From assembly GCF_027912455.1 (NCBI RefSeq), contig NZ_CP115446.1, forward strand, positions 2,689,501 through 2,753,500: a stretch of DNA of 64,000 nt, read 5' to 3'. Both the position numbers and the translations under genes were made by a program. Below the pieces are notes generated by a model that made no database searches, was not told the DNA's origin, and worked only from the letters and a program-made list of their open reading frames with translations. The stretch is from Aurantiacibacter sp. MUD61 (lineage in GTDB: Bacteria; Pseudomonadota; Alphaproteobacteria; Sphingomonadales; Sphingomonadaceae). Below are positions 1-16,901 of the stretch, in pieces. Positions within the stretch are counted from its first letter, which is position 1. Each line of letters opens with the position of its first letter.

Positions 1-257
1 TAGCCCAAAGAACTCAGTCGCTGTGCAAGGGCGTCGTACGCGGTCGGCCAGCTATTATACCCATGCGAAAAGAGCGCGACACCTTGCGCAGCTTCGGGTT
101 CCCAGATGGTAAGAGGCACCGCACGGTCATCACCGAGTGGCAGCTCGATAACCTGCGACCCTTGGCCGCCCGTGCTCGCCTCCACTGGAAGATGCAAAGC
201 GAGGGGCGCAGCCAATGCCGCCGCCATAAACATCCGGCGCGATAGCGCGAGCCTCAT
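1..257 (-). CDS. Alpha/beta hydrolase, Tat-exported, partial (C-terminus outside window)
   Basis: The first 85 codons of a minus-strand gene that runs off the left edge. The N-terminus reads MRLALSRRMFMAAALAAPLA, with a twin-arginine SRRxFM motif followed by a hydrophobic stretch and an Ala-rich cleavage region, which is a typical Tat signal. Further on, ALFSHGYNSWPTAYDAL looks like the strand / oxyanion-hole HG motif of alpha/beta hydrolases such as dienelactone hydrolase or lipase-like proteins. The start codon overlaps the stop of the E1 alpha gene (ATGA at 254-257), so the two are translationally coupled. The catalytic Ser and His lie outside the window, so the fold call rests on the HG region only. 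Confidence 0.7.
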   Translation of the reverse strand, partial: MRLALSRRMFMAAALAAPLALHLPVEASTGGQGSQVIELPLGDDRAVPLTIWEPEAAQGVALFSHGYNSWPTAYDALAQRLSSLG

Positions 258-1546
258 TCTGCCGGATCCTCCGGGAATTTGATCTGCCTCTCGCGGATCG
301 CCTGATCGGCCTGCTCTTCCAGATGCCAGGGCAGTTCCTCGAAGACATCTTCGAACATGGTGTGGAACGGGTGGTGCAGGCCGTGGCCGAGGATACCGTT
401 CTTTTCGGCATCCTTCTGCGCCTGCTTCACCATGTTATCGAGTTCTGCGTCCTGCTCTTCCTGCTGCTCCTCAGACCATTCGCCAAGAGCAATGAGGTGG
501 TTCTTGAGCCGCATGACCGGGTCGCCCATCGGCCATTCGTCACGCTCTTCGGCGGAGCGATATTGGCTTGGGTCGTCCGACGTCGAATGTCCCTCGGCGC
601 GGTAGGTAAAGTGCTCGATCAGCGTCGGCCCGCCATTGGCGCGAGCGCGGTCCGCTGCCCAGCGTTCGGCAGCATAAACGGCGAGCGGATCGTTGCCGTC
701 CACCCGCAGGCCCGCCATGCCATAGCCGATGGCGCGCGCGGCGAACGTTGCCCGCTCGGCACCCGCAAAGCCGGAGAAGGACGAAATCGCCCACTGGTTG
801 TTGATGACGTTGAAAATGACCGGCGCGTTGTAGACGGTCGCGAAAGTCAGCGCGGAGTGGAAGTCGCCTTCCGCCGTGCTGCCCTCACCCACCCAAGTGG
901 CAGCGATACGCGAATCGCCCTTGCTAGCGCTCGCCATCGCAAAGCCGGTCGCCTGCGGAAGCTGGGTCGCAAGGTTGCCGCTGATCGTGAAGAAGCTGAG
1001 CCGCTTCGAGCAGTACATGATCGGCAGCTGGCGGCCCTTCAGCTTGTCGGCCTTGTTGGAATAGATCTGGTTGATCATCTCCTCAGGCTCATAACCGCGC
1101 GCGATCAGGCAGCCCTGCTGGCGGTAGCTGGGGAAAATCATGTCATCCCCGGCAAGAGCATGGGTGGCGCAGACGCTGGTCGCCTCTTCACCCGTACACT
1201 TCATGTAGAAGCTGGTTTTGCCCTGCCGCTGGGCGCGATACATGCGCGTGTCGAAAGCGCGGGTCAGCGCCATTTCGCGCAGCATGCGGCGAAGCGTATC
1301 GGCATCAAGCCGCGGATCCCAAGGCCCGTGCGCCTTGTCATCATCACCCAGAACACGGATGAGATCATCGCACAGCGGATAGGTTTCTTTCGCCTCGCAC
1401 GCCTCATCAGGACGCGGTGCCGCGCCTGCTTCCGGCACCTGGATATGGCTGAAATCGACTTTGTCGCCGGGCCGGTATTTCGGCTCCGGCACATGGAGCG
1501 CTAGCGCAGGGCGGTTGCTGCCCTCTTTGTCGCCGGCTTTGGCCAT
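254..1546 (-). CDS. bkdA1: Branched-chain 2-oxoacid dehydrogenase E1 component, alpha subunit
   Basis: Predicted thiamine-diphosphate-dependent alpha subunit of the E1 component that decarboxylates 2-oxoisovalerate and related branched-chain 2-oxoacids in the multienzyme complex for Val/Leu/Ile breakdown. The 430-aa length and the extended N-terminus of about 80 residues match the branched-chain type rather than the roughly 360-aa pyruvate E1 alpha. The TPP/Mg site is visible as GEGSTAEGDFHSA at about 220-232, ending in INN at 248-250. The conserved FPSYRQQG active-site segment lies at about 138-145. E1 beta and E2 would be expected nearby but are not seen; an exported hydrolase gene overlaps the 3' end instead. 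A sigma70-like promoter lies just upstream (1612-1640) and a GGGAGA ribosome site precedes the ATG. Confidence 0.93.
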   Translation of the reverse strand: MAKAGDKEGSNRPALALHVPEPKYRPGDKVDFSHIQVPEAGAAPRPDEACEAKETYPLCDDLIRVLGDDDKAHGPWDPRLDADTLRRMLREMALTRAFDTRMYRAQRQGKTSFYMKCTGEEATSVCATHALAGDDMIFPSYRQQGCLIARGYEPEEMINQIYSNKADKLKGRQLPIMYCSKRLSFFTISGNLATQLPQATGFAMASASKGDSRIAATWVGEGSTAEGDFHSALTFATVYNAPVIFNVINNQWAISSFSGFAGAERATFAARAIGYGMAGLRVDGNDPLAVYAAERWAADRARANGGPTLIEHFTYRAEGHSTSDDPSQYRSAEERDEWPMGDPVMRLKNHLIALGEWSEEQQEEQDAELDNMVKQAQKDAEKNGILGHGLHHPFHTMFEDVFEELPWHLEEQADQAIRERQIKFPEDPAE

Positions 1547-1611
1547 GCTGCTCTCCCAAAAAGCACCGCGTGCCCTGAAGCCCGCGCGTTAGAATGTTTT
1601 ACTGCGGCGCA

Positions 1612-1640
1612 TTTATATTAGTTTCGCCTGAAACCGTCAA
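1612..1640 (-). promoter_or_regulatory. Sigma70-type promoter for the bkdA1 operon
   Basis: On the minus strand, TTGACG (1640-1635), a 17-bp spacer and TATAAA (1617-1612) form a near-consensus -35/-10 pair. It sits about 65 bp upstream of the bkdA1 start and in the gap behind thyA. Seen directly in sequence; activity is inferred. Confidence 0.65.
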
Positions 1641-1655
1641 TCCGCCGCAATCACG

Positions 1656-2600
1656 TTAGACCGCCACCGGTGCGCGCAGGATGCCCTGTGGCTCGTAATC
1701 GCTCACTTCGAAGTCTTCGAAACGATAATCGAAAATCGTCGGCGGCTTCCTCAACAAAGTAAGGCGCGGCGTCCCCGCCGGTTCCCGCGTCAGCTGTTCT
1801 TCGACCAGCTCCGTATGGTTGAGATAGAGGTGGGTATCCCCTCCGCTCCACACCAGTTCGCCGGGTTGCAGGCCCGTTTGCGCCGCCATCATGCGGGTGA
1901 GCACCGCCGCGCCAACCAGGTTGAACGGCAGGCCAAGAGCGACATCGCAGCTGCGCTGGTACAGCAGGCAATTCAGCCGCGCCTGATCGCCCTCACCCGC
2001 GACGTGGAACTGATAGGTCTTGTGACAGGGCGGCAGCGCCATCCGGGCGAGCTCCGCGACGTTCCACCCTTCGATGATGTGACGGCGACTGCCCGGATTG
2101 CTCTTGAGGCTTTCGACCACTTCGGCGACCTGATTGATGCCGGGGCCCTTGGTGTATTTGCCATCCGCTCCGTATTCGTAAGTCGGCCAGTCGACCCACT
2201 GCTTGCCATAGACCGGCCCCAGATCGCCCCAATTGGCGGCAAAGGCCTCGTCCTCGACAATGCGCTTTTCGAAGTCTTCCTGCGAAATATCCTCGCCGCT
2301 TTTCTGGCGGTATTTGGCGAGTGGCCAGTCAGACCAGATGCGCACGCCTTGCTGCAGCAGCGGCCGGATGTTCGTGTCGCCTGTCAGGAACCACAGCATC
2401 TCGCGCACGGCGGCCTTCCAGAACACGCGTTTGGTGGTGAGCAGCGGGATGCGATCATCGCCCAGATCGAAGCGCAGCATTGTTCCGAAAACGGAGCGCG
2501 TGCCCACGCCCGTGCGGTCAATCCGCTTGTCCCCATGCTCCCAGATATGGCGCATGAGATCGAGATATTGCCATTCCGGGTGGCGCGAGGAATCACTCAT
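1656..2600 (-). CDS. thyA: Thymidylate synthase
   Basis: Methylates dUMP to dTMP with 5,10-methylene-tetrahydrofolate as carbon donor and reductant. The nucleophile is Cys192 in LPPCHKTYQFHV and the phosphate-binding QRSCD motif is at 215-219. FDLGDDRIPLLTTK near residues 44-57 is also typical. At 314 aa it is longer than the 264-aa E. coli enzyme; the extra residues lie in the small domain (about 90-155), as in Lactobacillus-type enzymes. The gene stands about 60 bp downstream of the sugar epimerase gene on the same strand and about 110 bp from bkdA1, so it could be transcribed with the epimerase. Confidence 0.97.
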   Translation of the reverse strand: MSDSSRHPEWQYLDLMRHIWEHGDKRIDRTGVGTRSVFGTMLRFDLGDDRIPLLTTKRVFWKAAVREMLWFLTGDTNIRPLLQQGVRIWSDWPLAKYRQKSGEDISQEDFEKRIVEDEAFAANWGDLGPVYGKQWVDWPTYEYGADGKYTKGPGINQVAEVVESLKSNPGSRRHIIEGWNVAELARMALPPCHKTYQFHVAGEGDQARLNCLLYQRSCDVALGLPFNLVGAAVLTRMMAAQTGLQPGELVWSGGDTHLYLNHTELVEEQLTREPAGTPRLTLLRKPPTIFDYRFEDFEVSDYEPQGILRAPVAV

Positions 2601-2661
2601 GCCGGTGGGCTAGCAAAGCGCGATGCGCCGCGCCACTGTCGCCGTCACTGTCATGGGCGCT

Positions 2662-3657
2662 TCATTCGCCCGTATAGTGACGATACCAGTCGACAAAACG
2701 CGGCACGCCTTCGTCGATTGTGGTGCTGGGCGCATAGCCCAGATCGCGCTCGATCGCTTCGATATCGGCATAGGTCCGCTGCACATCGCCCTTTTGCATC
2801 GGTTGCCAGTCGATCTGCACTTCGCGGCCACATGCCTCGCCCAAAAGCTCGATCACGCGGGTCAGCTTTTCGGAGCGATTGTTGCCGATGTTGTAGAGCG
2901 CGTGTGGCTTCGAAGATCCACCCGCTTTCACATTGCCATCATCGGCAGGCGGATTGTCGAGCGCTGCAACAACGCCTGCGACGATATCCTCGATGTAAGT
3001 GAAATCGCGCCACATCTCGCCTTTGTTGAAAACCGGGATGGGTTCGCCGGCGAGGATCTTCTTCGTGAAAATCCACATCGCCATGTCAGGGCGGCCCCAC
3101 GGGCCATAGACGGTGAAGAAGCGCAGGCCGGTTAGAGGGATGCGGTAGAGATGGGCGTAGCTTTCGCTCATCATCTCATCCGCCCGCTTGGTCGCGGCGT
3201 AGAGGCTGACGGGATGATCCGCGCGGTCATCGACGCTGAAAGGCAATTTGTCGTTTCCGCCATAAACGCTGGAGGAGCTGGCATAGACCATATGCTCTAC
3301 CTCGCGGTGGCGCGCGATCTCCAGCATGTTGGCATGGCCCACGACATTGGACTGGACGTAAGCCGCCGGATTCTCGATCGAATAGCGGACGCCCGCCTGC
3401 GCACCCAAGTGAACGATCGCGTCGAAACTCTCGCCATCAAGCGCCGCAGAGAGCGCTGCCATGTCGGCAAAATTGACCTTGTGGAACGTGAAGTCCCCTC
3501 CCCGTCCTTCGAGACGGGAGATCCGGTCTGCCTTCAGCTGCGGATCGTAATAGGCATTGCAGTCATCTAGCCCGATCACGCTGTCACCGCGCGCCAGCAG
3601 GGCATCGACCAAAGCCGCCCCGATAAAGCCTGCCGCTCCGGTGATGAGAACCCGCAT
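2662..3657 (-). CDS. NAD-dependent UDP-sugar 4-epimerase, UDP-glucuronate 4-epimerase type
   Basis: Extended short-chain dehydrogenase. The Rossmann motif GAAGFIG is at 7-13, an SSSVYG strand at about 127-132, and the catalytic Tyr153/Lys157 pair in YAATK. The NPAAYVQSN and GLRFFTVYGPWGRPDMAM segments and the roughly 330-aa length resemble UDP-glucuronate 4-epimerases (GalA-forming, CapI-like), so UDP-galacturonate is a likely product. Substrate cannot be proven from motifs. It lies on the far side of tRNA-Pro from the large exopolysaccharide cluster and was probably part of that cluster before the islet entered the tRNA gene. Confidence 0.9.
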   Translation of the reverse strand: MRVLITGAAGFIGAALVDALLARGDSVIGLDDCNAYYDPQLKADRISRLEGRGGDFTFHKVNFADMAALSAALDGESFDAIVHLGAQAGVRYSIENPAAYVQSNVVGHANMLEIARHREVEHMVYASSSSVYGGNDKLPFSVDDRADHPVSLYAATKRADEMMSESYAHLYRIPLTGLRFFTVYGPWGRPDMAMWIFTKKILAGEPIPVFNKGEMWRDFTYIEDIVAGVVAALDNPPADDGNVKAGGSSKPHALYNIGNNRSEKLTRVIELLGEACGREVQIDWQPMQKGDVQRTYADIEAIERDLGYAPSTTIDEGVPRFVDWYRHYTGE

Positions 3658-3794
3658 TACTGCCCCTTGAACATTCGATGCTGTGCGCGATGGTTAGTGG
3701 CATCGCATGCGTGGCGGCGCAATGGCAGCATAGGCCTTACCGTCAAGTGAAAAGACCAATCACCGGGCCATTGGCTGGCGCGGCGAAAGCGGGC

Positions 3795-3823
3795 TTGCCA
3801 GCACTCGCCACTCCTCCTATAGG
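3795..3823 (+). promoter_or_regulatory. Promoter of tRNA-Pro
   Basis: TTGCCA (3795-3800), a 17-bp spacer and TATAGG (3818-3823) lie about 45 bp upstream of the mature tRNA 5' end on the plus strand. Spacing and sequence fit a sigma70 promoter for the single tRNA gene. Confidence 0.65.
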
Positions 3824-3867
3824 GCCGCCTCTGCCTCGCGGGGGTTCGCCTCCGCAACGCATCCGGT

Positions 3868-3944
3868 CGGGGAGTAGCTCAGCCTGGTAGAGCACTGTCT
3901 TCGGGAGGCAGGGGCCGGAGGTTCGAATCCTCTCTCCCCGACCA
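3868..3944 (+). tRNA. tRNA-Pro (anticodon CGG)
   Basis: 77 nt including an encoded CCA end. The acceptor strands CGGGGAG and CTCCCCG pair fully. The D arm is GCTC...GAGC. The anticodon stem 3895-3899 pairs with 3907-3911 around the loop TTCGGGA, giving anticodon CGG at 3902-3904. The T arm carries GGTTCGAATCC. The C1-G72 pair is typical of tRNA-Pro. The 3' portion from the anticodon loop onward is repeated exactly at 6134-6179, so the gene serves as the attachment site of the islet that follows and its 3' end is restored by the inserted DNA. Confidence 0.97.
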
Positions 3945-3945
3945 G
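3900..3945 (+). repeat. Left 46-bp direct repeat (attL) in tRNA-Pro
   Basis: The 46 bp from the anticodon loop to one base past the CCA end are identical to 6134-6179, with an offset of 2234 bp. Identity stops at 3899 (C versus T) on one side and 3946 (C versus T) on the other. Repeats of this kind, starting in the anticodon loop and covering the T arm, are the usual product of tyrosine-recombinase integration into a tRNA gene. Confidence 0.9.
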
Positions 3946-3968
3946 CAATTTCAATTACTTAACCCCCA

Positions 3969-4001
3969 AGAAAGACAGGGGTCGGAGCCACAATTTGAAC
4001 C
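3969..4001 (+). repeat. Inner 33-bp imperfect direct repeat, left copy
   Basis: AGAAAGACAGGGGTCGGAG (19 bp) is identical to 6005-6023. After three unmatched bases the similarity continues with CAATTTGAACC against CAACTTGAACC. The pair nests inside the attL/attR repeats and brackets the two cargo genes. It resembles a decayed copy of the tRNA variable loop and T arm. Confidence 0.8.
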
Positions 4002-4146
4002 CCGATCTTCCGAGGAGGCCTAATCTGTGCGTGCCCCCCATCCTTTCCCGGAGAACGATGCCGGTTAGATCTGTTGACAAATCTGGCTTCTGCTTGACAT
4101 TTTATACGAAATGCACTTTCTAGGCAGTCTAGACCGGAGATGCCTT

Positions 4147-4740
4147 ATGACGCCTTGGGAACACCACCCTGCACTAACTGAAGACCGCCTGAGTACTGTC
4201 GCGAAGCTGATTCAGATGGGGCGCGACAACGCCCTTGATCGCTTTGCTCCTCGGTTCGGCTGTACTGGATGGACAGTAGGATGCGAGGCCTTCGCTTTTC
4301 AGTGCCATGAAATAGCGACGGCCGCTGAAGATCACGAGTGGCTCAATATTCTCAATTCCTCAATGGAATTTGTATTCAGCATCGGCGGTGTTCCTGCGCG
4401 CTTTTATCGCGGCAAACCTGACGATCCCAACCAGCGGACACTTCGGCAGTCGTTTGATGAAATTAAGCAGGGTGCACTCTTTTCGGATGAAGAGCTTTCA
4501 AGATTGTCCGGCCGTCCCCTTTATCGCTTCGCCGTCGAGACCGATTTTGACGGATCGATCGAAGCAATATCGTTTGTCGTTCTTGTAGGCGATACCCCGA
4601 TGCTGACCTGGCAAATCCCTTTGGATCAGTCCGTGAGCAAGGTGAGCCCGCTGGACGTCGAAGTCGACGATGGTGTCGATCTGGCTGCACCGACAGTGGA
4701 AGTTGCCCGAAAAGAGAGGAAGGACGGCACGAACGATTAG
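4147..4740 (+). CDS. Unknown islet protein, first gene of a pair with the XRE/ImmA peptidase
   Basis: I do not recognise this 197-aa protein. ATG 4147 is preferred over the in-frame ATG 4111 because GGAG lies eight bases upstream of it. There is no signal peptide or membrane segment. The N-terminal part is mixed helical with FGCTGWTVGCEAFAFQCHE, which carries three Cys residues. The middle holds GGVPARFYRGKPDDPNQRTL, and the C-terminus is highly charged (DVEVDDGVD followed by KERKDG). A 5-5-5 dyad TCTAG-GCAGT-CTAGA lies at 4119-4133 just upstream and could be an operator for the neighbouring HTH protein. The next gene starts 42 bp downstream on the same strand, so the two are probably co-transcribed. 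Base composition is more AT-rich than the host genes around it. Confidence 0.75.
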   Translation: MTPWEHHPALTEDRLSTVAKLIQMGRDNALDRFAPRFGCTGWTVGCEAFAFQCHEIATAAEDHEWLNILNSSMEFVFSIGGVPARFYRGKPDDPNQRTLRQSFDEIKQGALFSDEELSRLSGRPLYRFAVETDFDGSIEAISFVVLVGDTPMLTWQIPLDQSVSKVSPLDVEVDDGVDLAAPTVEVARKERKDGTND

Positions 4741-4782
4741 AGATGGCAATAGCCACCGAGTGTGAGAGTACTGTAGGTAACA

Positions 4783-5901
4783 ATGAAAACACAAATGGAG
4801 TTCGCCGGCGAGCAGCTTAGACTCGCCCGGCTTGCGCACGGGTTGTCTCTAGAAGAAGTGGCTGAGAGGATTGCGACCTCTCGTCAGTTTATTCATCAGC
4901 TGGAGAATGGCTCGAGATCCGCGTCCACAGAGCATGTCGAGATTCTCGCTGAGGCGCTCGGCGTAACTGAGGATTTCTTTGCTGATTTGGTCCCATCGAC
5001 CGTGCGCCCGGAACAGTGCCATTTCCGTGGCCTCAGTTCTCGCCCCGCATATGTCACGAGCCAGGTGCTGGCGCGCGGCACTCTCTTGGATAAGTTGGTA
5101 GCGTCGATCGAGGGAGTTCTAAGCCTCCCGACAGTCGACTTCCCTGACATTCCCGTTTCGAATTTCGAAGAAATCGAGCAAGCCGCCGAGGCCGCAAGAA
5201 TCCATTGGAAGTTGGGCTCGACCGGCCCGATCAAGAATATGATGCGCGTCGTCGAGAATGCCGGCGCGGTCGTTACATATTTCGAAGATTTGTCCGAGAA
5301 GGTTGATGCCTTCTCGATGGACCGGCGCCGACCGATCATTGTTAGGAGTTCTCTAAAGCAGAGCCTTTTTCGGCAGCGCTTCGATCTCGCCCATGAATGT
5401 GGGCATTTGATCATGCATCGTGGAATTCAGACTGGTGACCAAGCGACTGAGAAGGAAGCGCACAGATTTGCAGGAGCGTTCTTATTCCCACGCGGAGCAG
5501 TCCTCCGTGAATTCCCGAGAGGAAAGAGGATCGACTGGCAGGCTTTGTACAAGTTGAAATTGAGATGGCGAATGTCGGTGAGCGCGATTGTGCGACGCGC
5601 ATTTGATTTGAGGATCCTGACCCCCGCTCAATATCGAACCGCAAATATCTACTTGCGTAAAACGGGCCAATCGAAGGTCGAGAAGTTTGATAATGACGGG
5701 TCGCTACCCCTCGAATATCCAGAACTGCTTCCCAAGGTCATCGACGCGCTTGATGAAGCGATCCCTGGCGGTGTTCTGTCAGTTGGAATGAAAGCGGGAT
5801 TGAAGCGTGAAATGCTGGTACAGCTCACGGGTATTGAGTTAAATCCATCAGCCCCAATTTCCAGCGCGGACAACGTTATCCAGTTGCATCCCAACAGGTA
5901 G
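4783..5901 (+). CDS. XRE-family regulator fused to ImmA/IrrE-type zinc metallopeptidase
   Basis: 372 aa with two domains. Residues about 9-66 form a Cro/C1-type helix-turn-helix (LRLARLAHGLSLEEVAERI, then QFIHQLENG). Residues about 150-290 are an ImmA/IrrE-like peptidase (COG2856/DUF955) with the zinc motif H204-E-C-G-H208 in FDLAHECGHLIMH and a downstream Glu (about 225) in EKEAHRFAGAFLFP as the likely third ligand. ImmA cleaves an ICE repressor and IrrE/DdrO acts in radiation response. XRE-peptidase fusions are common beside toxin, phage and defence genes. It probably senses a signal, cleaves a repressor or the partner protein, and represses its own promoter. The partner gene is immediately upstream. 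Confidence 0.92.
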   Translation: MKTQMEFAGEQLRLARLAHGLSLEEVAERIATSRQFIHQLENGSRSASTEHVEILAEALGVTEDFFADLVPSTVRPEQCHFRGLSSRPAYVTSQVLARGTLLDKLVASIEGVLSLPTVDFPDIPVSNFEEIEQAAEAARIHWKLGSTGPIKNMMRVVENAGAVVTYFEDLSEKVDAFSMDRRRPIIVRSSLKQSLFRQRFDLAHECGHLIMHRGIQTGDQATEKEAHRFAGAFLFPRGAVLREFPRGKRIDWQALYKLKLRWRMSVSAIVRRAFDLRILTPAQYRTANIYLRKTGQSKVEKFDNDGSLPLEYPELLPKVIDALDEAIPGGVLSVGMKAGLKREMLVQLTGIELNPSAPISSADNVIQLHPNR

Positions 5902-6004
5902 AATTGCGCCTACGGATTTCTCATCGAAACGCCGTGCGCGACATCAGAAGCGGCTTCTGTGTTTTGATGCCGCAGCACGAAAGAATGTCGCCACGTCACC
6001 CACC

Positions 6005-6037
6005 AGAAAGACAGGGGTCGGAGGTTCAACTTGAACC
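6005..6037 (+). repeat. Inner 33-bp imperfect direct repeat, right copy
   Basis: Right partner of 3969-4001; 19 bp are identical and 11 more match with one mismatch. Within it, CAGGGGTCGGAGGTTCAA differs from the tRNA-Pro segment CAGGGGCCGGAGGTTCGAA by one substitution and one missing base, which suggests a decayed attachment site. The following 95 bp up to 6133 are AT-rich and contain no readable gene. Confidence 0.8.
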
Positions 6038-6133
6038 TTTTTTGGTAAATTGAACCTAATTAGATGCCATTCAATGCGATTTTCCCCAAATCCACTCCAA
6101 TTTTTTCAATGGCTTAGCATTTAGAGACGTGTT

Positions 6134-6179
6134 TTCGGGAGGCAGGGGCCGGAGGTTCGAATCCTCTCTCCCCGACCAG
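6134..6179 (+). repeat. Right 46-bp direct repeat (attR), tRNA-Pro 3' fragment
   Basis: Exact copy of 3900-3945. Upstream bases (6121-6133) do not complete a D arm or 5' acceptor strand, so this is not a second tRNA gene but the original chromosomal 3' end displaced by the insertion. Confidence 0.9.
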
Positions 6180-6192
6180 TTTTTCGTGACGC

Positions 6193-6215
6193 AAAGCCAT
6201 CCGGTGGATGGCTTT
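6193..6215 (+). terminator. Stem-loop after attR, possibly the displaced tRNA-Pro terminator
   Basis: AAAGCCATCC pairs perfectly with GGATGGCTTT around a GGT loop. It lies 13 bp past the attR repeat, the position expected for the native terminator of tRNA-Pro before insertion. The T run after the stem is short, so termination strength is uncertain. Confidence 0.4.
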
Positions 6216-6266
6216 GGCCGAAAAACTCCCAAGCGATAGCCCGGGAGCTCCTCTCAGCCCAAAACC

Positions 6267-7235
<969 letters not shown>

Positions 7236-7264
7236 CAGAAACTCCTATCAAAATCGCATGTCGA

Positions 7265-8101
7265 TCATGCCGATTGCTGTTGCCTGATCAACAGCCGAAT
7301 CGTGTGAAAATACCAAGTCTTGTACGCCGCGTAGTGGAAGCCTGTGCCACCGTCGAGGAAACCGCCTTTGGCGACGTAGGTGAAAAGGAAATAGAAAGCC
7401 GGATACCACCATTTGGCCAGGTGCCGGTATTTGAACTGCTGGCGCGGTGTGAACCGTTCCCACAGCTCGGAGTCCTGCTCCACAAGCGCGTAGCGCCGCG
7501 CTTCCCATTTTGCGTATTCCAGATGCTTGGCGATGAATGTATCGAGCGGCTTGAAATCGCGGTGATCGATGCGCGCGGTGATTTCGCCCACCTCGCCTTC
7601 GACGATGGGATGCTCGTGGATTTCCATATCCAGCGTGCTCCAGCCGTCTTCATCGATCCGCTCGAACAGCGCCTTGCCGGTGCGCAGCAGCGCCAGTTTG
7701 CGCTGAGCGAGACCGTGCTTCATCTGCTTGCCGAGGAAGTAATTGTCGTACTGGATCCAGAAGCCGCTCTTGCCGGTATTTGGCAGGGTGCGCGCCAGCT
7801 CATCGCAGAACGCGTCATCGATGAACTCGTCCGCATCAAGGAACAGGACCCAGTCCTGCTGCGGCGGATCGTTCATCAGGAACCAGTTGCGCTTTTTCGG
7901 GAATTTGCCGTCCCACTGGAAATCGACCACCCGCGCGCCAAATTCGTGCGCGATCTCGGTCGTCCGGTCGCTCGAGCCGCTATCAATGACTACGATTTCG
8001 GCAAACCGGCCCAGCCGCTCGAGGCATTTGGCCAGGTTCGCTTCCTCGTTCTTGACGGGAACAGCTACGGTGACGGGCAGAATATCAGAGTTCGCAGTCA
8101 T
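7265..8101 (-). CDS. Glycosyltransferase family 2 (WaaE/KdtX-like)
   Basis: 278 aa from ATG 8101 (a TTG three codons earlier is less likely). GT-A fold: VTVAVPVKNEEANLAKCLE at the N-terminus, EIVVIDSGSSDRTTEIA, then the DXD-like metal site in VLFLDADEFID. The tail with KYRHLAKWWYPAFYFLFTYV contains an amphipathic/hydrophobic stretch, suggesting peripheral association with the inner membrane. It probably adds a sugar to the lipid-linked repeat unit or LPS core; the donor cannot be read from sequence. It lies between uxs and a Wzy-like polymerase in the same cluster. Confidence 0.9.
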   Translation of the reverse strand: MTANSDILPVTVAVPVKNEEANLAKCLERLGRFAEIVVIDSGSSDRTTEIAHEFGARVVDFQWDGKFPKKRNWFLMNDPPQQDWVLFLDADEFIDDAFCDELARTLPNTGKSGFWIQYDNYFLGKQMKHGLAQRKLALLRTGKALFERIDEDGWSTLDMEIHEHPIVEGEVGEITARIDHRDFKPLDTFIAKHLEYAKWEARRYALVEQDSELWERFTPRQQFKYRHLAKWWYPAFYFLFTYVAKGGFLDGGTGFHYAAYKTWYFHTIRLLIRQQQSA

Positions 8102-8231
8102 TTCCGCCAAGTAGCCAATTGGAATTCAGGAAGGTGCTCGTCTCGGAGCGCGCCGACGCATTGGCGGATTTCGCAGGAGCTTTCAACCCCGATGGAACCG
8201 GCCCTCAGCCCTTCGCGCTATACTCGAGCAA

Positions 8232-9599
8232 CTATGCCGGACGCCCCGTCGCAGGCGGTCGATCTGCAGTCTCGTGCGCCCTCCGACGAGCTTGCCGCGT
8301 ATGGTAGACCTTCTGCCCAAATCGCCAGATGAAAGGCAGAGTTACGGCCAGTATGAAAGGCAGCCCTGAAAGGAAGCGGGCAGAAGACTGGGTGAATGCA
8401 ACAAGCGCATCGTTCAGCAGGATAAGATAATAGAACTGCGCCCAGAATGCGCCCGCGAGTGCATGTTTCCAAAGCCATCCAAACAGCATCCCGATCAGGC
8501 CGAATACCAGAACGCCAAAGTAGCTGAATGAGCGGAATGTGTCGGAAAAGCCGGTGTGCGTGATGCCCGGCGTGGCATACATTTCGTAATCCATGCCCTC
8601 CTGCGCCAACTCATGCTCCATCATGAGCGAATCCTTGAAATCGCGGCCAAGTGCGAAGGCAGGGACATAGCGCAGGACCAGATCGTTCCAGAGCTCGACG
8701 GGGCCCTCAGCCACATCCTGCTCGCGGGCATAATGAATATCGAGCGCAGCGATGGACAGCTCGGGTGCGTCATCGGCTTGGAAATAGGAGAAACGTTCAA
8801 AAGGAACGCCTTCCACGAAAGCGCTGACGACGGTCCCCTCTCCGCGCTGGATATAGGCGCGCACGTCACCCACCTGATGCAACAGCACCATGCCAAGGAA
8901 GCAAATTGCAAAGACCGCCACGCGTGGGGGGCGCCAGTTGAACACGAAGAATATGCTGCCACCGAGGATAATGAGTGTTTCGGCAATCATATGGCGTTTC
9001 ACATTGCCGCCAAAGCCGATGAGAACAGCACTCAGCGTAAGCAAGCCGATGATGAGATAAACTTTCCTCCCCGTCCTCGCGTAAAGCAGAGCAGCGATTG
9101 CCAGCGAGAAAAAGGTCGACTGGCCGAGCAGAAACCAGAGCGTCGCAACCCCCGTCCACATATTGCCGAGTTCGGATGTGTCTGTGGCGCTCAGCTGATA
9201 GTTCGCCACCGCCCCGATCAGCCAAAGCACAATGGCTCCGGCTAGCAGTTTCTGCTCGTATTTGTTCATCGGCGCACTCACGTTGCCGGGCAAGCGCCAG
9301 CGCTCGAATGCGGTGGTCTTGCGGCGCTGCTCGGCTGGCCCTCCAAGCAAACCGGAGGATGTCACATAAAACCCGAGCGCGAGCGCGATCAGAGCAGCCG
9401 TCATATAGAGGAAGAGAAAATCGGCGTTGAGCCAGGGCCCGTAGACATCGCGCTCCAAGTGCAGGGCCTGGGGAACAAAAAATGCCAGATATAGATACGC
9501 CACCACAACCGGCAGCGTCAGGATTTTCCTGATGCGCAGGACGCCGAAAGAGAACATCACGAGCGCCGTCGCGAGGAGCAGGAACAGGGCAAAACTCAT
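8232..9599 (-). CDS. Oligosaccharide repeat-unit polymerase (Wzy-like) membrane protein
   Basis: 455 aa with about ten to eleven hydrophobic segments spread along its length and one large hydrophilic loop (about 225-325) containing ERFSYFQADDAPELSIAAL. This architecture, many TM helices and one big periplasmic loop, is that of Wzy-type O-antigen/EPS polymerases. Sequence motifs in this family are weak, so the call rests on topology and context. It starts 38 bp from the acyltransferase gene. A second polymerase/ligase-like protein is encoded at 22904-24343. Confidence 0.75.
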   Translation of the reverse strand: MSFALFLLLATALVMFSFGVLRIRKILTLPVVVAYLYLAFFVPQALHLERDVYGPWLNADFLFLYMTAALIALALGFYVTSSGLLGGPAEQRRKTTAFERWRLPGNVSAPMNKYEQKLLAGAIVLWLIGAVANYQLSATDTSELGNMWTGVATLWFLLGQSTFFSLAIAALLYARTGRKVYLIIGLLTLSAVLIGFGGNVKRHMIAETLIILGGSIFFVFNWRPPRVAVFAICFLGMVLLHQVGDVRAYIQRGEGTVVSAFVEGVPFERFSYFQADDAPELSIAALDIHYAREQDVAEGPVELWNDLVLRYVPAFALGRDFKDSLMMEHELAQEGMDYEMYATPGITHTGFSDTFRSFSYFGVLVFGLIGMLFGWLWKHALAGAFWAQFYYLILLNDALVAFTQSSARFLSGLPFILAVTLPFIWRFGQKVYHTRQARRRAHETADRPPATGRPA

Positions 9600-9636
9600 T
9601 GTTTTCGGTCTATCCTGTCAATTCGATCCGTGGATG

Positions 9637-10677
9637 TCACGCACCCGAAACAGCCCTACGCTCATCCCATGACCGGATGGCCGCTCCGCCCAGCTTCAGC
9701 ATTGGTCGTTCGAGAAGCCTGTGAACCACATAGGACACGAGCAGGCTCGCTACTATGCAAATCGCGATGAATGCAAATCTATTCAGGGGCACCGCGACGC
9801 TTTCCGCCGCGATTGCCAAAGCTGAAATGACGGGCCCATGAACAAGGTAAAGCACGTAGGAAACTGCTCCCAATGTGACCCAGGGCCGGCCCAGTTCCAA
9901 GGTCCCCCGCAATTCCAGCGCCGCAGAGCCAGCGATTATCATCGTCGATGCCGTGCCCACCAAGATAATCCCGAGAGTTCCCATGTGGAAAGCATCGGTG
10001 AAAAGCACAGTGGCCACAAACAAAGCGATCCCGCTCCAGAGCCAGGTCCGGCTCGCGATGGAACGATTGCGAACAATCCACGCCGCTGCTGCACCGAATG
10101 CAAACAGGATGTTGACCGGCGAGAGCGGATAGAATTCGATCCCCATCCAGATGTTTGCGAGGCAAGCCACCATCCAGATGATGAAGAGCGCCCCGCCCCA
10201 TCGCCTGGAAAGGATGACGACCCCGAAGATCACGTAGAAAAGCATTTCGTGAAACAGGGTCCACGCCACGGTGAGCGGAGTTGGATTGATGTCCCCTGCA
10301 AGCAGGAAAGCGCTCACGATCGTTCCCGCCTCGCGGAACTCTGGCAATCCCAGCTGCGGCAGGATTTGATACGCCAGCAGCATCGGTATCAATATCGCCC
10401 AATAGATCGGATAAATGCGATTGATCCGTTTCAGGATATATTTCGGTGCCTGCTCGGGTCTGCCAAAATCCTTCTCATGCACCCAAAACATGACAAAGCC
10501 GGACAGCACGAAGAAGAAATAGATACCGGTCTGACCGGCGAGGAAAAAACGCTCCAGCAGCGGCGCGAGATCGTCCGCAGGCATGGCGTAGGCGGCGTGA
10601 AAAACGACAACACCAAGCGCCGCCACACCGCGCCCCAATTCCAGCGTCTGGATCTTGTTGCGTCCGCTATCTTTCAC
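9637..10677 (-). CDS. Acyltransferase family 3 membrane protein (OafA/ExoZ-like)
   Basis: About ten TM segments and the family signature R-x10-H near the N-terminus (LELGRGVAALGVVVFHAA), where the Arg and His are needed for O-acyl transfer from acyl-CoA to a sugar across the inner membrane. GTG 10677 is favoured: GAGGGA stands about nine bases upstream, whereas the earlier GTG at 10701 has no ribosome site. Product 346 aa, usual for the family. It probably O-acetylates the exopolysaccharide repeat unit. Confidence 0.9.
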   Translation of the reverse strand: MKDSGRNKIQTLELGRGVAALGVVVFHAAYAMPADDLAPLLERFFLAGQTGIYFFFVLSGFVMFWVHEKDFGRPEQAPKYILKRINRIYPIYWAILIPMLLAYQILPQLGLPEFREAGTIVSAFLLAGDINPTPLTVAWTLFHEMLFYVIFGVVILSRRWGGALFIIWMVACLANIWMGIEFYPLSPVNILFAFGAAAAWIVRNRSIASRTWLWSGIALFVATVLFTDAFHMGTLGIILVGTASTMIIAGSAALELRGTLELGRPWVTLGAVSYVLYLVHGPVISALAIAAESVAVPLNRFAFIAICIVASLLVSYVVHRLLERPMLKLGGAAIRSWDERRAVSGA

Positions 10678-10771
10678 ACGAAGTGATCCCTCTGGCCACA
10701 CGGCCGCTCACCATTGTCAGGCAATTTAACGCCTTGCAGGTCCGCGGCGTTGGCAACGAATAGGGTAAAGG

Positions 10772-11986
10772 TCAATCCAGCCTGACGCATTCGGGCTTGG
10801 CGGCCTTGCCCAGCATCCATCGATAAACTGCGATATGCTGTGAGGCGATGCTCGCCCAGCCGAACCGCTGCTCGGCAAGAATGCGCGCATTGCGTCCGGT
10901 CTCGGCCAGATGGCCCGACGCCAGATGTTCGGCAAGCTTGGATGCAAGTTCTTCTGCCGTCTGCGGGATTTCCAATGCCGCCTTCTGATCGAATCCTTCT
11001 GGGAGATTGCACTCCTGCGTCATCAAGGTCGGCAATCCCCACGACCATGCTTCGAGGATGGACATGGGCAGGCCTTCCGACTTCGAAGGCAGCACAAAGG
11101 CATCGGCATGCGCCAAGGCATTGTCCTTGCCATCGCCATGCAAAGGTCCCGGCAATACGACTTCATCGGAGACGAGGCCTGTTCGAGTAATCGCGCGCTC
11201 CACTTCCGCGAGGTGGCCGCCATCGTCCCAACCAGCGATGGCAATCCGCCAATTCGCAGCGAGTTCGGGATGCGTCTCGCGCAGCATTCCCCAAGCCTCG
11301 ATCAGTTCGACGATGCCCTTTTTCTGGTGGATGCGGCCGATGAACAGCAGTGTCTTGCGACCGTCTTCGGGCAACCAGTCCGGCCGGGCACGGCGCACAT
11401 CCAGATCGGGAATATGCGTGCCGTTCGGAATGATGGCGATGGGATTGGTAAGGCCGAAAGCGCGCATCGATGCCGCCTCCGACTCGTTGAGCGCATGCAT
11501 GCAGTGCGCGTGGCGCAGATTATCGTTTTCGAACAGCCAGCCGACGATCCTCTTCTTCCAACCCGCGTGTTGCAGCGCCCACGGATCGAGCATCCCTCGC
11601 GGAGAAATCATCACCGGCCCGCCCGTCTTGCGCCGCCAGTCTGATGCGATCACCGAGGGATACTGCCAGATTCCGTGAAGGTGGAGAACGTCATGTCCTC
11701 CCGCCAGAACGGCTTCTTTCATCCCGCGCGAATAAGCGAGAGAAGCGGGCGCCCCCCTTTCAAAGACGTGCGGCTTGATCGGTGTCCAGGCACCTTCATC
11801 CTGTGCACTTTCACTGTCCGATGGAGCATAGACGCTGACGTCTATGCCAGCCCGATTAAGCTGCAGCGCCGATTGCCGGACCGAATGGAACAGACCGCCC
11901 GCGAGCCGCGAGATACTACCGGTGACGATCCCCAGCGAAAACTCCGCTGGATCGCGATCCCGTGCCGTCGATTCAGGAGACGGCAT
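10772..11986 (-). CDS. Glycosyltransferase family 4
   Basis: 404 aa GT-B enzyme. The open frame extends to 12241, but this part overlaps the upstream gene. ATG 11986 (MPSPESTARDRD) overlaps the upstream stop by only 14 bp. N-terminal Rossmann domain with GSISRLAGGLFHSVRQSA, linker PNGTHIP, and the C-terminal donor-binding E-x7-E region in SEGLPMSILEAWSWGLPTL. It likely adds one sugar of the exopolysaccharide repeat unit on the cytoplasmic face. Donor unknown. Confidence 0.9.
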   Translation of the reverse strand: MPSPESTARDRDPAEFSLGIVTGSISRLAGGLFHSVRQSALQLNRAGIDVSVYAPSDSESAQDEGAWTPIKPHVFERGAPASLAYSRGMKEAVLAGGHDVLHLHGIWQYPSVIASDWRRKTGGPVMISPRGMLDPWALQHAGWKKRIVGWLFENDNLRHAHCMHALNESEAASMRAFGLTNPIAIIPNGTHIPDLDVRRARPDWLPEDGRKTLLFIGRIHQKKGIVELIEAWGMLRETHPELAANWRIAIAGWDDGGHLAEVERAITRTGLVSDEVVLPGPLHGDGKDNALAHADAFVLPSKSEGLPMSILEAWSWGLPTLMTQECNLPEGFDQKAALEIPQTAEELASKLAEHLASGHLAETGRNARILAEQRFGWASIASQHIAVYRWMLGKAAKPECVRLD

Positions 11987-13193
11987 CGATTTTGCGTTCG
12001 GATAGCTTGTCGAGAATGATCCGGTCGAGCAGGCCCAGTTTCCGGCGCCTCGAATGCTTAAGCGCAGCCTGCGCGGCATTCGCCATGTTCTTGCCGAAGC
12101 GTTCGGGCCCCCAATCCGCGATTGCAGCGGCAGCGCGCTCTCCCATCGCAGCCCGTTCGGCATCCGACATGCGGAACAGCTTTTCGATAGCCTCGGCAAT
12201 GCCTTCAACTGTGGGCTCCACGATGAAGCCGCTTTCGCCATCGGTGACGACCGTGCGCCCTACGCCGCAGGGCTCCGACACGGTAACGGGAAGACCCGCT
12301 GCCATGCCTTCATTCACCACCAGACCCCATTGCTCCACGGTGGAGACATGGGCGAAGCCTTCTGACAGGCCGTAGAAGATGGGCAGAACATCATAGCCGC
12401 GATAGCCGGGCAGGTGAACATGATCGGCCACGCCGGCATCGCGCGCTGCCGTTTCGATATTCGCGCGCTCTTCGCCATCCCCGAGGATGACAAGATCTGG
12501 GCTATCGCCTCCCACCGCACTGCGGGCCCGTGCGAATGCGCGGACGAGGTTCGGGAGGTTCTTCTTCGCAATGAAACGCGCAGATGCGAGGATGTAGCGC
12601 TCGGGGAGATTGTGCTCGGCTCGCAGGGCGCCCGCATTGCTGCGCGCTTCGGTAGCCAGCTTTGCAAAATGGCTGTTGCCGACCGCATTATAGCCCAGGA
12701 AAATGCGATCTTCAGCCATGCCGAGTATCTTGATGTAATCAGCATGCGGCGGACCACCGACAAGCGCAGCATCACAAAGCGACACGATGCGCTTCTTGGT
12801 CCATTCGCGGACCTTCGAGCGATCCGCATCATCGATCTGGCTTTCCGACATGACGATGAGCGGCACGGACTGGCCATGCGCCCATTTGATCGCCGCAGCG
12901 CTCAGCGGGCTGCTCCATCCCGGGATGGCGATCACGTCAGGACGCACACGATTGAGGCATTCGTCCATCCGCTCTTGCAGCACGCCCTCGGCAAGCCCCT
13001 GCATGAAGGCAGCGCTGCTTTCGAACAGGCGTTCAACGCTGTACCCATCGCTCGCCTCGACAGTGAATTCGGCGAAGCCGCCTTCATTCTCGCCGACGAT
13101 GACGACCAGATCGTCGATCTGCTCACTCGCACCGCGATAGCGGGCGTCGTGGTAATGGCCGATTTGGCTGGTCAGTATCGCAAGCCGGGTCAT
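11973..13193 (-). CDS. Glycosyltransferase family 4
   Basis: 406 aa GT-B protein. LILGDGEERANIE-like C-terminal nucleotide region, HLPGYRGYDVLPIFYGLSEG (visible near 290-310) and the donor motif GFAHVSTVEQWGLVVNEGMA are typical of GT4. The N-terminal acceptor domain starts MTRLAILTSQIGHYHDARY. Its stop overlaps the start of the next glycosyltransferase (10772-11986), indicating translational coupling. Confidence 0.9.
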   Translation of the reverse strand: MTRLAILTSQIGHYHDARYRGASEQIDDLVVIVGENEGGFAEFTVEASDGYSVERLFESSAAFMQGLAEGVLQERMDECLNRVRPDVIAIPGWSSPLSAAAIKWAHGQSVPLIVMSESQIDDADRSKVREWTKKRIVSLCDAALVGGPPHADYIKILGMAEDRIFLGYNAVGNSHFAKLATEARSNAGALRAEHNLPERYILASARFIAKKNLPNLVRAFARARSAVGGDSPDLVILGDGEERANIETAARDAGVADHVHLPGYRGYDVLPIFYGLSEGFAHVSTVEQWGLVVNEGMAAGLPVTVSEPCGVGRTVVTDGESGFIVEPTVEGIAEAIEKLFRMSDAERAAMGERAAAAIADWGPERFGKNMANAAQAALKHSRRRKLGLLDRIILDKLSERKIDAVS

Positions 13194-13244
13194 GCCGCTG
13201 TCTTTCTGTTTTCGATCTGCACTAAGTTATTCACTTGCCGGTCT

Positions 13245-13799
13245 TTACGGACGCGTCAGCGTTCCATCCGGCTGGATGAGGCGGCGCTGGGTTGCGGGCG
13301 CTCCGGCGATCAGGCTGTTGGCGGGGTAATCGCCTTTCACCACCGAATTGGCCGCGACAATCGATCCTGAGCGAATATGCGCACCGGGGCCGATGTGGAC
13401 ACCCCTGCCGATCCACACATTGTCTTCAATCACAATCGGGCTCACCGCGAACCCCTGCCCCCGCACGCCCTCGGCGGGAATAAAGCGGTGATCCTGGTCG
13501 CGGATCGACACGTATTCGCCAACAGCGACGTTGTTTCCGATCGTAATCGCGTCCCCGGCGACGAGATGCGTGCCCGTGTTAAGCGACACGTCGTCACCGA
13601 TTGTAATGCGTGACGTCTTGCCGGTCTGGAAGAACACATCATGCCCGATCATTGCATTGCGACCGATCGTGACATTGCGGAAAGGCAAAGGCAGGCGAAT
13701 GCGCCCTGTAAACTGCGCCCCTGCCCCGATACGCTTGAAAAAAAGCGGGCAGCTGAGACGCATCAGGGCGCCTTTGAATTTCCAGATCGCAGGGATCAT
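13245..13799 (-). CDS. Left-handed beta-helix acyltransferase (WbbJ/LacA-like)
   Basis: 184 aa made mostly of hexapeptide repeats ([LIV]-G-x4 steps) from about residue 40 to 165, e.g. IGRNAMIGHDVFF, ITIGNNVAVGEYVSI, VWIGRGVHIGPGA. The conserved QDHRF segment carries a candidate catalytic His. Proteins of this size acetylate sugars in O-antigen and capsule clusters. It is separated by 51 bp from the upstream gene of the group at 11973-13193 and follows the FkbM methyltransferase by 10 bp. Confidence 0.9.
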   Translation of the reverse strand: MIPAIWKFKGALMRLSCPLFFKRIGAGAQFTGRIRLPLPFRNVTIGRNAMIGHDVFFQTGKTSRITIGDDVSLNTGTHLVAGDAITIGNNVAVGEYVSIRDQDHRFIPAEGVRGQGFAVSPIVIEDNVWIGRGVHIGPGAHIRSGSIVAANSVVKGDYPANSLIAGAPATQRRLIQPDGTLTRP

Positions 13800-13809
13800 G
13801 TGCGGCCCC

Positions 13810-14694
13810 TCAGCGCTTCAGCGCTGCGATAGCAGCGTCGCCTTCCGGATAGTGATCTACCAGCAAATTGCCTGCCAATCCGCGTGCACGCCGCATGCGG
13901 AAGCGAGTAACGAGCGCATCATCGATGATGGCGCGCCGCACGCAAATCCAGTTGGACTGGCCGAAATTGTCGAGGCTGAAATGATAACCGGTCGCCTCAA
14001 GTCCTTCGGGAAGCAGGCGGCAGAGGACGTAATCGGGGACCAGAAGATCGAAGAAATGTCGCAGCGAAATCCCGGCTGCAAGGGTCGCATGGTTATATTC
14101 GAACTGGATGAAATCCACGCCGCCGTGTGACAGGCTCTGGGTCAGGCCCTGCAATACGGCGAGATCGTGCCCTTCGGCATCGACTTTCAGCACATCGACG
14201 TGATCAATTCTAAGGCGCTCTAGCTCTGCGTCACCCTTTCGCGCTTCGAGCACAAGGGTCTCGACATCGCCGTCTGCAGAATAGTCAGTGTGAGCGGATG
14301 CGAGCTCGGGCCGACCAGAGACGGTCTGGATTTCGAGTGTTCCACTCTCATCTGACAGCGCAGCGTTGACGAGCGTCACGTGCTTGCCGCCAACCGCTTT
14401 CTCCAACATGGCAAAAGTCGCTGCCACAGGTTCGTAGCAGACAAGCTGACAGTTGGGGGCGAAGCGCAAAATGCCTTCCGCCCATTCGCCTTTATTGGCC
14501 CCGACATCCACGGCGCACGATATCCCGCGCGATGCCAGCGTCTGCTGGAACCAGCGCTCACCATTCGCGGTGATCTGGACGCTGCGGTTTTCATAGGCAG
14601 CCACCAACCGGCTGGCGAATACATAGGCGGCATAGGATCCCGGCACACGGCGCGCGAGGCTGCGCCAGGCAAGCTTGTCGACCAGGCCGATCAT
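13810..14694 (-). CDS. FkbM-family SAM-dependent methyltransferase
   Basis: 294 aa. The start at ATG 14694 overlaps the stop of the upstream glycosyltransferase (ATGA at 14691-14694); an in-frame upstream extension to 14808 lies inside that gene and is not supported. The SAM site is VDVGANKGEW with a following acidic strand CYEPVAATF, and the FkbM signature DVLKVDAEGHDLAVLQGL is clear. FkbM enzymes O-methylate sugars or polyketides; in this setting, methylation of an exopolysaccharide sugar is likely. Confidence 0.9.
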   Translation of the reverse strand: MIGLVDKLAWRSLARRVPGSYAAYVFASRLVAAYENRSVQITANGERWFQQTLASRGISCAVDVGANKGEWAEGILRFAPNCQLVCYEPVAATFAMLEKAVGGKHVTLVNAALSDESGTLEIQTVSGRPELASAHTDYSADGDVETLVLEARKGDAELERLRIDHVDVLKVDAEGHDLAVLQGLTQSLSHGGVDFIQFEYNHATLAAGISLRHFFDLLVPDYVLCRLLPEGLEATGYHFSLDNFGQSNWICVRRAIIDDALVTRFRMRRARGLAGNLLVDHYPEGDAAIAALKR

Positions 14695-15782
14695 TTCGCT
14701 GCGCTTTCCAAAGACATCGTGCAATTTTTCCCTATGGCCGCCAGCAGTTCCACGGCGCGGTCGGACCAATAGATGCCGTTGCCCGTTTGTAAAACCCGCG
14801 GATGGCAAATTTCTTCGGCAATCGTCATCAAAAGCGCATCCGCGCTACCGACCGAAATATGGTCCGCCGGATAGTTCGTCACCTGATCGCACGTTGGCAG
14901 AGCGAAGATCGGAACGCCGGTCGCCAAATGATCGTAGAGCCGCATCGGCGAACAAAAATGGTTGAGCTGTGTTGCGGCGTAGGGGATCAATGCCGCGTCC
15001 ATCGCCTGAGCGTAGAGATGCATCTGCTCATGCGGCAAGCGGCCTGTGATGACGACTTTTTCCGAGCGCAAAGCCGGATGAGCCGCCGTCAAATCGTCAA
15101 CCACCGGCCCCGCTACGAGGAATGTGCCCACTTCTTCCAGAGCGATCACACGCTCGATCAGGGCAAGGTCCAGCCGATCCGACAATCCCCCGAGCACACC
15201 GAGTACCGGCGCTTTCCGGCCCTTCAACATGTCCAGCTCGCTATCTTCGCGCTCAGCGAACCGCTTTTCGGTAGCGTTGGCTGAGGTGACGGTCCGCGCG
15301 GCGGGGATATTATCCTCTGCAATCGCGCGCTGGCGAAGGGCATCGGACACATAAGCGCTCAGACACGCGCGGCGCTGCATGGCGGCTTCGCGTTGGCGCG
15401 CGTTGCCCCAGCCCGAATAGCTCGCATAATCATCCGCAGTATAGGTCACGATCGGCAGTTTGCCGTCCAGCATCGCCGCAAGCGGTGCGTAGGCAGGAGA
15501 CGTCAGCAGGACGACCGGGTTTTCCAGGTCCCTCGCGAGGCGCAGAATGCGGCGACACAGCAGTCGCTGGCCGATGAAAGCGGTGCGCGAAGCCCAGCCC
15601 GGCGGCACAAACGGCTGCTCGACGCGCAATTGCCCCTCGCCCGTCTTTTCCTCGCTCGCTTTGGCGGTGGGGCTCGTGAAAGGAGCGATCCCAATGACCT
15701 GCGTTTCGGCAGCGAGGGCCTCAGCCAGGCGGCGGTGCCAAATGGTGTTCACGTCAGCAAAAATGATGTCTGGCTTTGCCAT
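14691..15782 (-). CDS. Glycosyltransferase, GT-B fold
   Basis: 363 aa. PIVTYTADDYASYSGW and CLSAYVSDALRQRA resemble the glycosyltransferases of exopolysaccharide clusters that carry a D-x-x-S/Y acceptor region. The C-terminal half has VLGVLGGLSDRLDLALIERV and an EQMHLYAQAMDAALIPY donor region. It overlaps the FkbM gene by 4 bp and follows the next glycosyltransferase by 4 bp. Donor and acceptor unknown. Confidence 0.82.
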   Translation of the reverse strand: MAKPDIIFADVNTIWHRRLAEALAAETQVIGIAPFTSPTAKASEEKTGEGQLRVEQPFVPPGWASRTAFIGQRLLCRRILRLARDLENPVVLLTSPAYAPLAAMLDGKLPIVTYTADDYASYSGWGNARQREAAMQRRACLSAYVSDALRQRAIAEDNIPAARTVTSANATEKRFAEREDSELDMLKGRKAPVLGVLGGLSDRLDLALIERVIALEEVGTFLVAGPVVDDLTAAHPALRSEKVVITGRLPHEQMHLYAQAMDAALIPYAATQLNHFCSPMRLYDHLATGVPIFALPTCDQVTNYPADHISVGSADALLMTIAEEICHPRVLQTGNGIYWSDRAVELLAAIGKNCTMSLESAAK

Positions 15783-15786
15783 GCCG

Positions 15787-16890: not shown

Positions 16891-16901
16891 CGGCGTCGCC
16901 G

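Follow-up and report, generated by a model that had tools for sequence, protein, structure and literature searches.

The locus and its cargo

The window, by which we mean the whole 64-kb stretch of DNA that was analysed, contains a small islet at a tRNA-Pro(CGG) gene that is still intact (Table 1). The first-pass annotation described exact 46-bp repeats of the tRNA 3′ end at this place, and these were recovered as identical 46-mers that occur only twice in the window. With the tRNA located by ARAGORN, the breakpoints also agree with that description. Similarity between the two copies continues beyond the 46 bp, over 58 nt at 93%. The size of 2234 bp given there is correct as start-to-start spacing and too large for the interior, since 2188 bp separate the two copies. 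When the whole genome was searched for the tRNA 3′ end, as had been suggested for the 46-bp sequence, two matches were returned, both belonging to the islet, of which one copy was found. At 0.524, the GC content of the islet is below that of all 288 overlapping segments of equal length taken from the remainder of the window (mean 0.606, sd 0.017).

Table 1 Positions of the islet features in the window and of elements at tRNA-Pro on other contigs
Feature	Position	Strand	Description and evidence
tRNA-Pro(CGG)	3868..3944	+	Integration target, intact; sole tRNA-Pro(CGG) call by ARAGORN
attL core	3900..3945	+	tRNA 3′ end, anticodon loop to 1 base past CCA; exact 46-bp repeat
Islet interior	3946..6133		2188 bp, GC 0.524
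Left arm site	3973..4005	+	28 bp past tRNA CCA; 30.3 bits, rank 2 of window (both strands)
rmrT-like gene	4147..4740	+	197 aa, predicted toxin; PADLOC RmrT PDLC03929, 2e-18
rmrA-like gene	4783..5901	+	372 aa, HTH and ImmA/IrrE-type peptidase, predicted antitoxin; PADLOC RmrA PDLC03943, 6e-112
Right arm site	6009..6041	+	95 bp before GGGAGG of core; 43.9 bits, rank 1 of window (both strands)
attR core	6134..6179	+	Exact 46-bp repeat
Hairpin	6179..6235	+	Natively 3′ of tRNA-Pro, displaced by insertion; fold -26.6 kcal/mol; comparison with G005 and G022
G087 element (L067)	246-2255		1.9 kb; recognised genes: integrase and RepC N-terminal-like protein only
G341 islet (L065)	3881-6217		2.26 kb at tRNA-Pro; reverse transcriptase cargo, no integrase
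G279 islet (L069)	3916-7153		3.1 kb; R-M: HNH, C5 methylase, Vsr; no integrase
G315 element (L070)	2459-17077	both	13.5 kb at tRNA-Pro
L107 islet, Natronohydrobacter thiooxidans	2249-3913		1.58 kb; palindromic end repeat pair, NTP_transf_8 cargo gene

As the annotation had stated, the islet contains only two genes and no integrase. All five PF00589 matches of the genome are outside it, the closest about 116 kb away, and a tblastn search with eight integrases found no integrase relic in the islet (best E 0.13, which is noise). Genes for integration or transfer were also not found there.

The two genes are separated by 42 bp and are predicted, with function inferred from profiles, to encode a RosmerTA-like anti-phage toxin-antitoxin pair. 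In PMC10440598, RosmerTA is described as a toxin gene adjoining one that encodes an ImmA-type protease, in many cases with a helix-turn-helix (HTH) domain. The islet pair resembles it in this arrangement and in its matches to the PADLOC RmrT and RmrA profiles, and the RmrA protein contains the Pfam domains HTH_3 and Peptidase_M78, with the RmrT gene adjoining. Against the closest NCBIfam model, a repressor/antitoxin family, RmrA scored 151 bits, under the cut-off of 335. RmrT, for which the start codon was picked by likeness to the gene in genome G018, has 83 other homologues at E ≤0.001, with identities of up to 68% for full-length and up to 74% for short ones. It had no match in Pfam, and its predicted model (pLDDT 78, pTM 0.72) had none in the PDB at E ≤0.001. 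By visual reading this model has no obvious membrane segment, whereas the Kita phage toxin is predicted to be at the membrane in PMC10440598.

RmrA homologues were found in three of 40 same-genus genomes, own genome counted, and near the other two no tRNA was called by ARAGORN in the stretches examined. The pair was also considered as phage cargo, and no relative was confirmed in viral contigs by a scan sensitive to close relatives only; the phage collection contained one match, 33% identical, in a 582-kb Salmonella record. The HTH and Peptidase_M78 architecture would also fit, in place of an antitoxin, an excision regulator left behind by an integrative element that was lost, comparable to ImmA/ImmR in a conjugative element of Bacillus subtilis (PMC10440598, for the role of ImmA). 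This is very improbable for the islet gene, as RmrA is its top PADLOC profile and aligns along almost the entire protein, the gene upstream matches RmrT, and the same pair is found in G018 (RmrA 63% identical), close to a lepA-like gene in 19 kb of sequence that contains no tRNA.

Insertion at tRNA-Pro

The annotation's proposal of a site-specific insertion is supported by empty sites in two related genomes (G022 and G005), by the low GC of the islet and by the sparse occurrence of RmrA homologues in the genus. Had there been no insertion, all relatives were expected in that annotation to be filled and the composition to be host-like, and neither is the case. The comparison drew on 22 tRNA-Pro(CGG) loci of the genus; many extend over just 3 kb, and 12 include the left flank gene EPI. 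In G022 and G005, EPI (84% and 76% identical, respectively), the tRNA and a hairpin follow each other in a row, and the hairpin is like the one 3′ of the right repeat of the islet. The genes past the hairpin in both genomes differ from the right flank of the window. Because the hairpin directly follows the tRNA in these two genomes, the window can be read as the filled site, in which the islet separates tRNA and hairpin, next to two empty ones. The locus has the attributes of a tRNA-integrated genomic island, namely a regenerated tRNA, a displaced fragment and an empty site in relatives.

The hairpin and its adjoining stretch (window 6179-6248) recur 3′ of tRNA-Pro(CGG) or tRNA-Pro(TGG) genes in several relatives, and a similar hairpin was seen by eye 3′ of attR in the G370 prophage of another genus. 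G026 was considered as a clean empty site, as it has both flank genes and one tRNA copy, but was rejected because about 527 bp intervene before the right flank gene; by eye, this stretch contains a reading frame of about 140-150 aa. In G024 (L041) and G036 (L043), about 12 and 6 kb, respectively, separate tRNA-Pro from the right flank gene, with no second att copy within the stretches read.

Arm sites shared with prophages

An internal direct repeat, absent from the first-pass annotation, proved the most telling feature of the islet. Its two copies match the arm sites of prophage elements, in which a motif, ACAG followed by a palindrome like GGTTCA/TGAACC, flanks the core on both sides, and they are listed as arm sites in Table 1. 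They were scored with a weight matrix made from 13 arms of seven elements, selected by regular expression and by eye and none of them from the window. The next separate site in the window reached 8.7 bits, and the best arm scores in 15 Markov controls were 6.8 to 14.1 bits. The matrix detected both arms of the G087 element, which were in its training set, and found none at the ends of the G013, G017, G027, G316 and G341 elements, where the best score elsewhere was 11.5, inside G017. The integrases of G013, G017, G027 and G316 belong to another family. In G141 the best end score, at the place of the left arm, was only 2.8 bits, and its arms are lost.

At the same tRNA, G370, G305, G156, G079, G083 and G311 each have an element within the range of 39-48 kb whose integrase, located beside attL, is 52-57% identical to that of G087, and the G370 element includes tape-measure and tail genes. 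At the right end of G079 no arm motif was seen. The distance from the GAACC end to the core is 99-100 bp in five prophages, 109 bp in G087 and 99 bp in the window. A pattern of right arm plus core, with an allowed gap of about 84-114, matched 24 viral contigs, and in all 24 the best arm is 95-96 bp from the core, compared with 95 bp in the islet. A left arm follows the core by 26-47 bp in 14 of them (28 bp in the islet), an arm-family integrase is present in 15, and both integrase and left arm in 13, counts in which some loci stop too early to show left arm or integrase and two contigs with identical values (L119 and L129) may be one phage. Of 25 matches in genome contigs, 15 have an arm above 20 bits (L088, L092 and L096 being training elements or their records); L091, L095, L101, L106, L107 and L109 have no arm above 16 bits, and L090, L098, L100 and L110 are intact tRNA genes. 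In Sphingomonas segetis (L103, 4413-4666), the right arm of a 42-kb element is preceded by a tRNA-Lys at a distance of 7 bp.

The left end of the islet is most similar to that of G305 (score 30.9, with 19.3 as the maximum of 700 shuffles), and for the right end the nearest relative is viral contig L118 (score 39.0, with 28.8 as the maximum of 1220 shuffles). One half of the left arm has diverged, and the left arm of G305 is similar. Since the arms match the prophage family at prophage spacing, the islet appears to have kept a phage-type attP in the absence of an integrase, and its insertion by a recombinase of this family is well supported by the sequence comparisons. In circular form, the right arm would precede the tRNA-Pro core by 95 bp and the left arm would follow it by 28 bp, which is the attP layout of the family. 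The prophages have a common stretch just before the core, noted by eye, and its lack in the islet suggests that attP function may be reduced.

The own genome has no arm-family integrase, as all five of its integrases are outside the family, and the 40 same-genus genomes yielded one weak match (35%, one stop). This leaves the islet without a helper today: it is either stranded for now or awaiting a visiting phage, which could in principle move it. In the phage collection, the arm-associated integrase family matched five records at 30-37% identity.

Related elements and origin of the islet

Two matches to the tRNA 3′ end were counted by eye in 22 of 397 family genomes, and both are on one contig in 16 of these. 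Five spacings are below 3.2 kb: G141 (1.8), G087 (1.9), G000, the genome of the RosmerTA islet (2.2), G341 (2.3) and G279 (3.1 kb). The longer ones are 6.9 (G316), 13.5 (G315), 17.5 (G381), seven of 39-55 and 121 kb (G176). Three same-genus genomes beyond the 397-genome sample (G027, G017 and G013) have elements of 5.9-8.2 kb. Among the short elements, the integrase of G087 is accompanied by a RepC-like gene and that of G141 is broken, and no integrase was found inside the G000, G341 and G279 islets.

The G341 islet has one intact tRNA-Pro and a 47-bp att repeat, and none of the 13 integrase matches of its genome is inside it. Its cargo was matched best by a general reverse transcriptase profile (1e-32), followed by RT_UG17 (3e-31). 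Its layout is similar to that of the window islet: measured to the edge of the att copy, a 30-nt repeat (83%) stands at 95 bp on the displaced side and at 25 bp on the tRNA side, and the corresponding values in the window islet are 92 and 27 bp. The sequence of the repeat differs from the arms of the window islet. A helper phage for these arms was sought, and no viral contig with G341 arm plus core was found. Two copies of the tRNA 3′ end were present in one of ten genomes of the genus of G341.

The G279 islet is left out of this arm-cargo-arm plan because the whole tRNA is repeated and comparable end repeats are missing: a 115-bp repeat covers all of tRNA-Pro, and two whole copies bracket the R-M genes. 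Tandem tRNA duplication or homologous recombination, rather than site-specific recombination, could likewise be proposed for the repeat in the window. There, however, the exact repeat begins in the anticodon loop, the hairpin is displaced and two arms are placed at attP spacing, and since these arms score far above controls, such an origin is scarcely credible.

We favour, at a probability of a little under 0.6, the reading of a non-autonomous defence islet with a complete att site, placed in the tRNA gene by a phage integrase acting in trans. Its components would be an attachment site of phage type and a single predicted defence module, and a family integrase supplied by an infecting or resident phage would carry out its insertion and, we infer, its excision. 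The RosmerTA-like cargo is predicted to guard the host against other phages, and as a toxin-antitoxin pair it may also discourage loss of the islet.

The annotation had left the choice between a decayed remnant and movement in trans. Movement in trans fits better, because both arm sites are present at the right spacing and no integrase relic was found; decay keeps a considerable, though clearly smaller, share of the probability. In that case, a RosmerTA-carrying prophage at tRNA-Pro would have lost its integrase and all phage genes in one or a few deletions that left both ends, making the islet a phage-derived CIME (cis-mobilizable element) that may still be excisable once an integrase arrives. 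Both ends are of prophage type, and short islets at tRNA-Pro can arise by loss from larger elements, because G141 and L107 retain pieces of integrase. L107 retains a C-terminal piece of about 40 residues together with its palindromic repeats and one cargo gene. The G315 element, whose ends have their own TCCGGTG repeat by eye, contains no integrase, with no PF00589 match on the contig and none with the query integrases, which is what deletion would leave. This and the lack of both a helper and a second islet copy count against a travelling cassette. On the other side, G141 with its broken integrase lost its arms, whereas both arms of the islet are intact, and the viral-contig scan for close relatives and the single distant match in the phage collection do not place RmrT/RmrA on such a prophage. 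Intact arms, the missing relic and the case of G341 lead us to prefer the travelling cassette.

More tentatively, and rather doubtfully, the tRNA-Pro genes of Alphaproteobacteria may host a class of integrase-free arm-cargo-arm defence cassettes moved by integrase-supplying phages. If so, each cassette would bear an attP belonging to one phage integrase family and be shuttled much like integron cassettes, with the window islet, which carries RosmerTA, and the reverse transcriptase islet of G341 as two members that differ in arm code.

What is new is the presence of putative arm sites of a prophage integrase family inside an integrase-free islet. Among the literature matches listed (titles and abstract starts), no earlier description of an arm-bearing, integrase-less layout was found, which is not proof of its being unpublished. 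How defence genes spread without visible mobility genes is an open question, and the mobilisation mode of some E. coli defence islands is given as unclear in PMC10121019. With conserved arm sites as a signature, the likely helper of a recombinase-less islet can be named from sequence, and mobilisation in trans becomes directly testable.

Several known systems share part of this layout. CIMEs derive from ICEs or IMEs and move by accretion with a neighbour (PMC5704250), and 15 ssrA islands of Dehalococcoides without an integration module have been suggested to be CIMEs (PMC3146451). The islet is like them in retaining attL and attR in the absence of integration and transfer genes. It differs in its size of 2.2 kb, in its phage-type att with both arms and in that no neighbouring element for accretion was seen; for an origin by loss from an ICE or IME, its ends are of prophage type and no relic was found. 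CALIN cassettes and MITEs are hitchers, with recombination sites, no enzyme and a helper in trans (PMC11389934). The islet resembles them in having recombination sites without its own enzyme and in its probable dependence on a helper, but they use integron or transposon recombination, whereas at its tRNA gene the islet would rely on the tyrosine integrase of a phage. Phage satellites are described as 7-20 kb long and as encoding integrase, regulatory and replication genes (abstract of PMC13376191). With P4-like satellites and PICIs the islet shares defence cargo and, as we infer, dependence on phages; in place of an integrase and replication genes of its own, however, it has two genes only, both assigned to RosmerTA.
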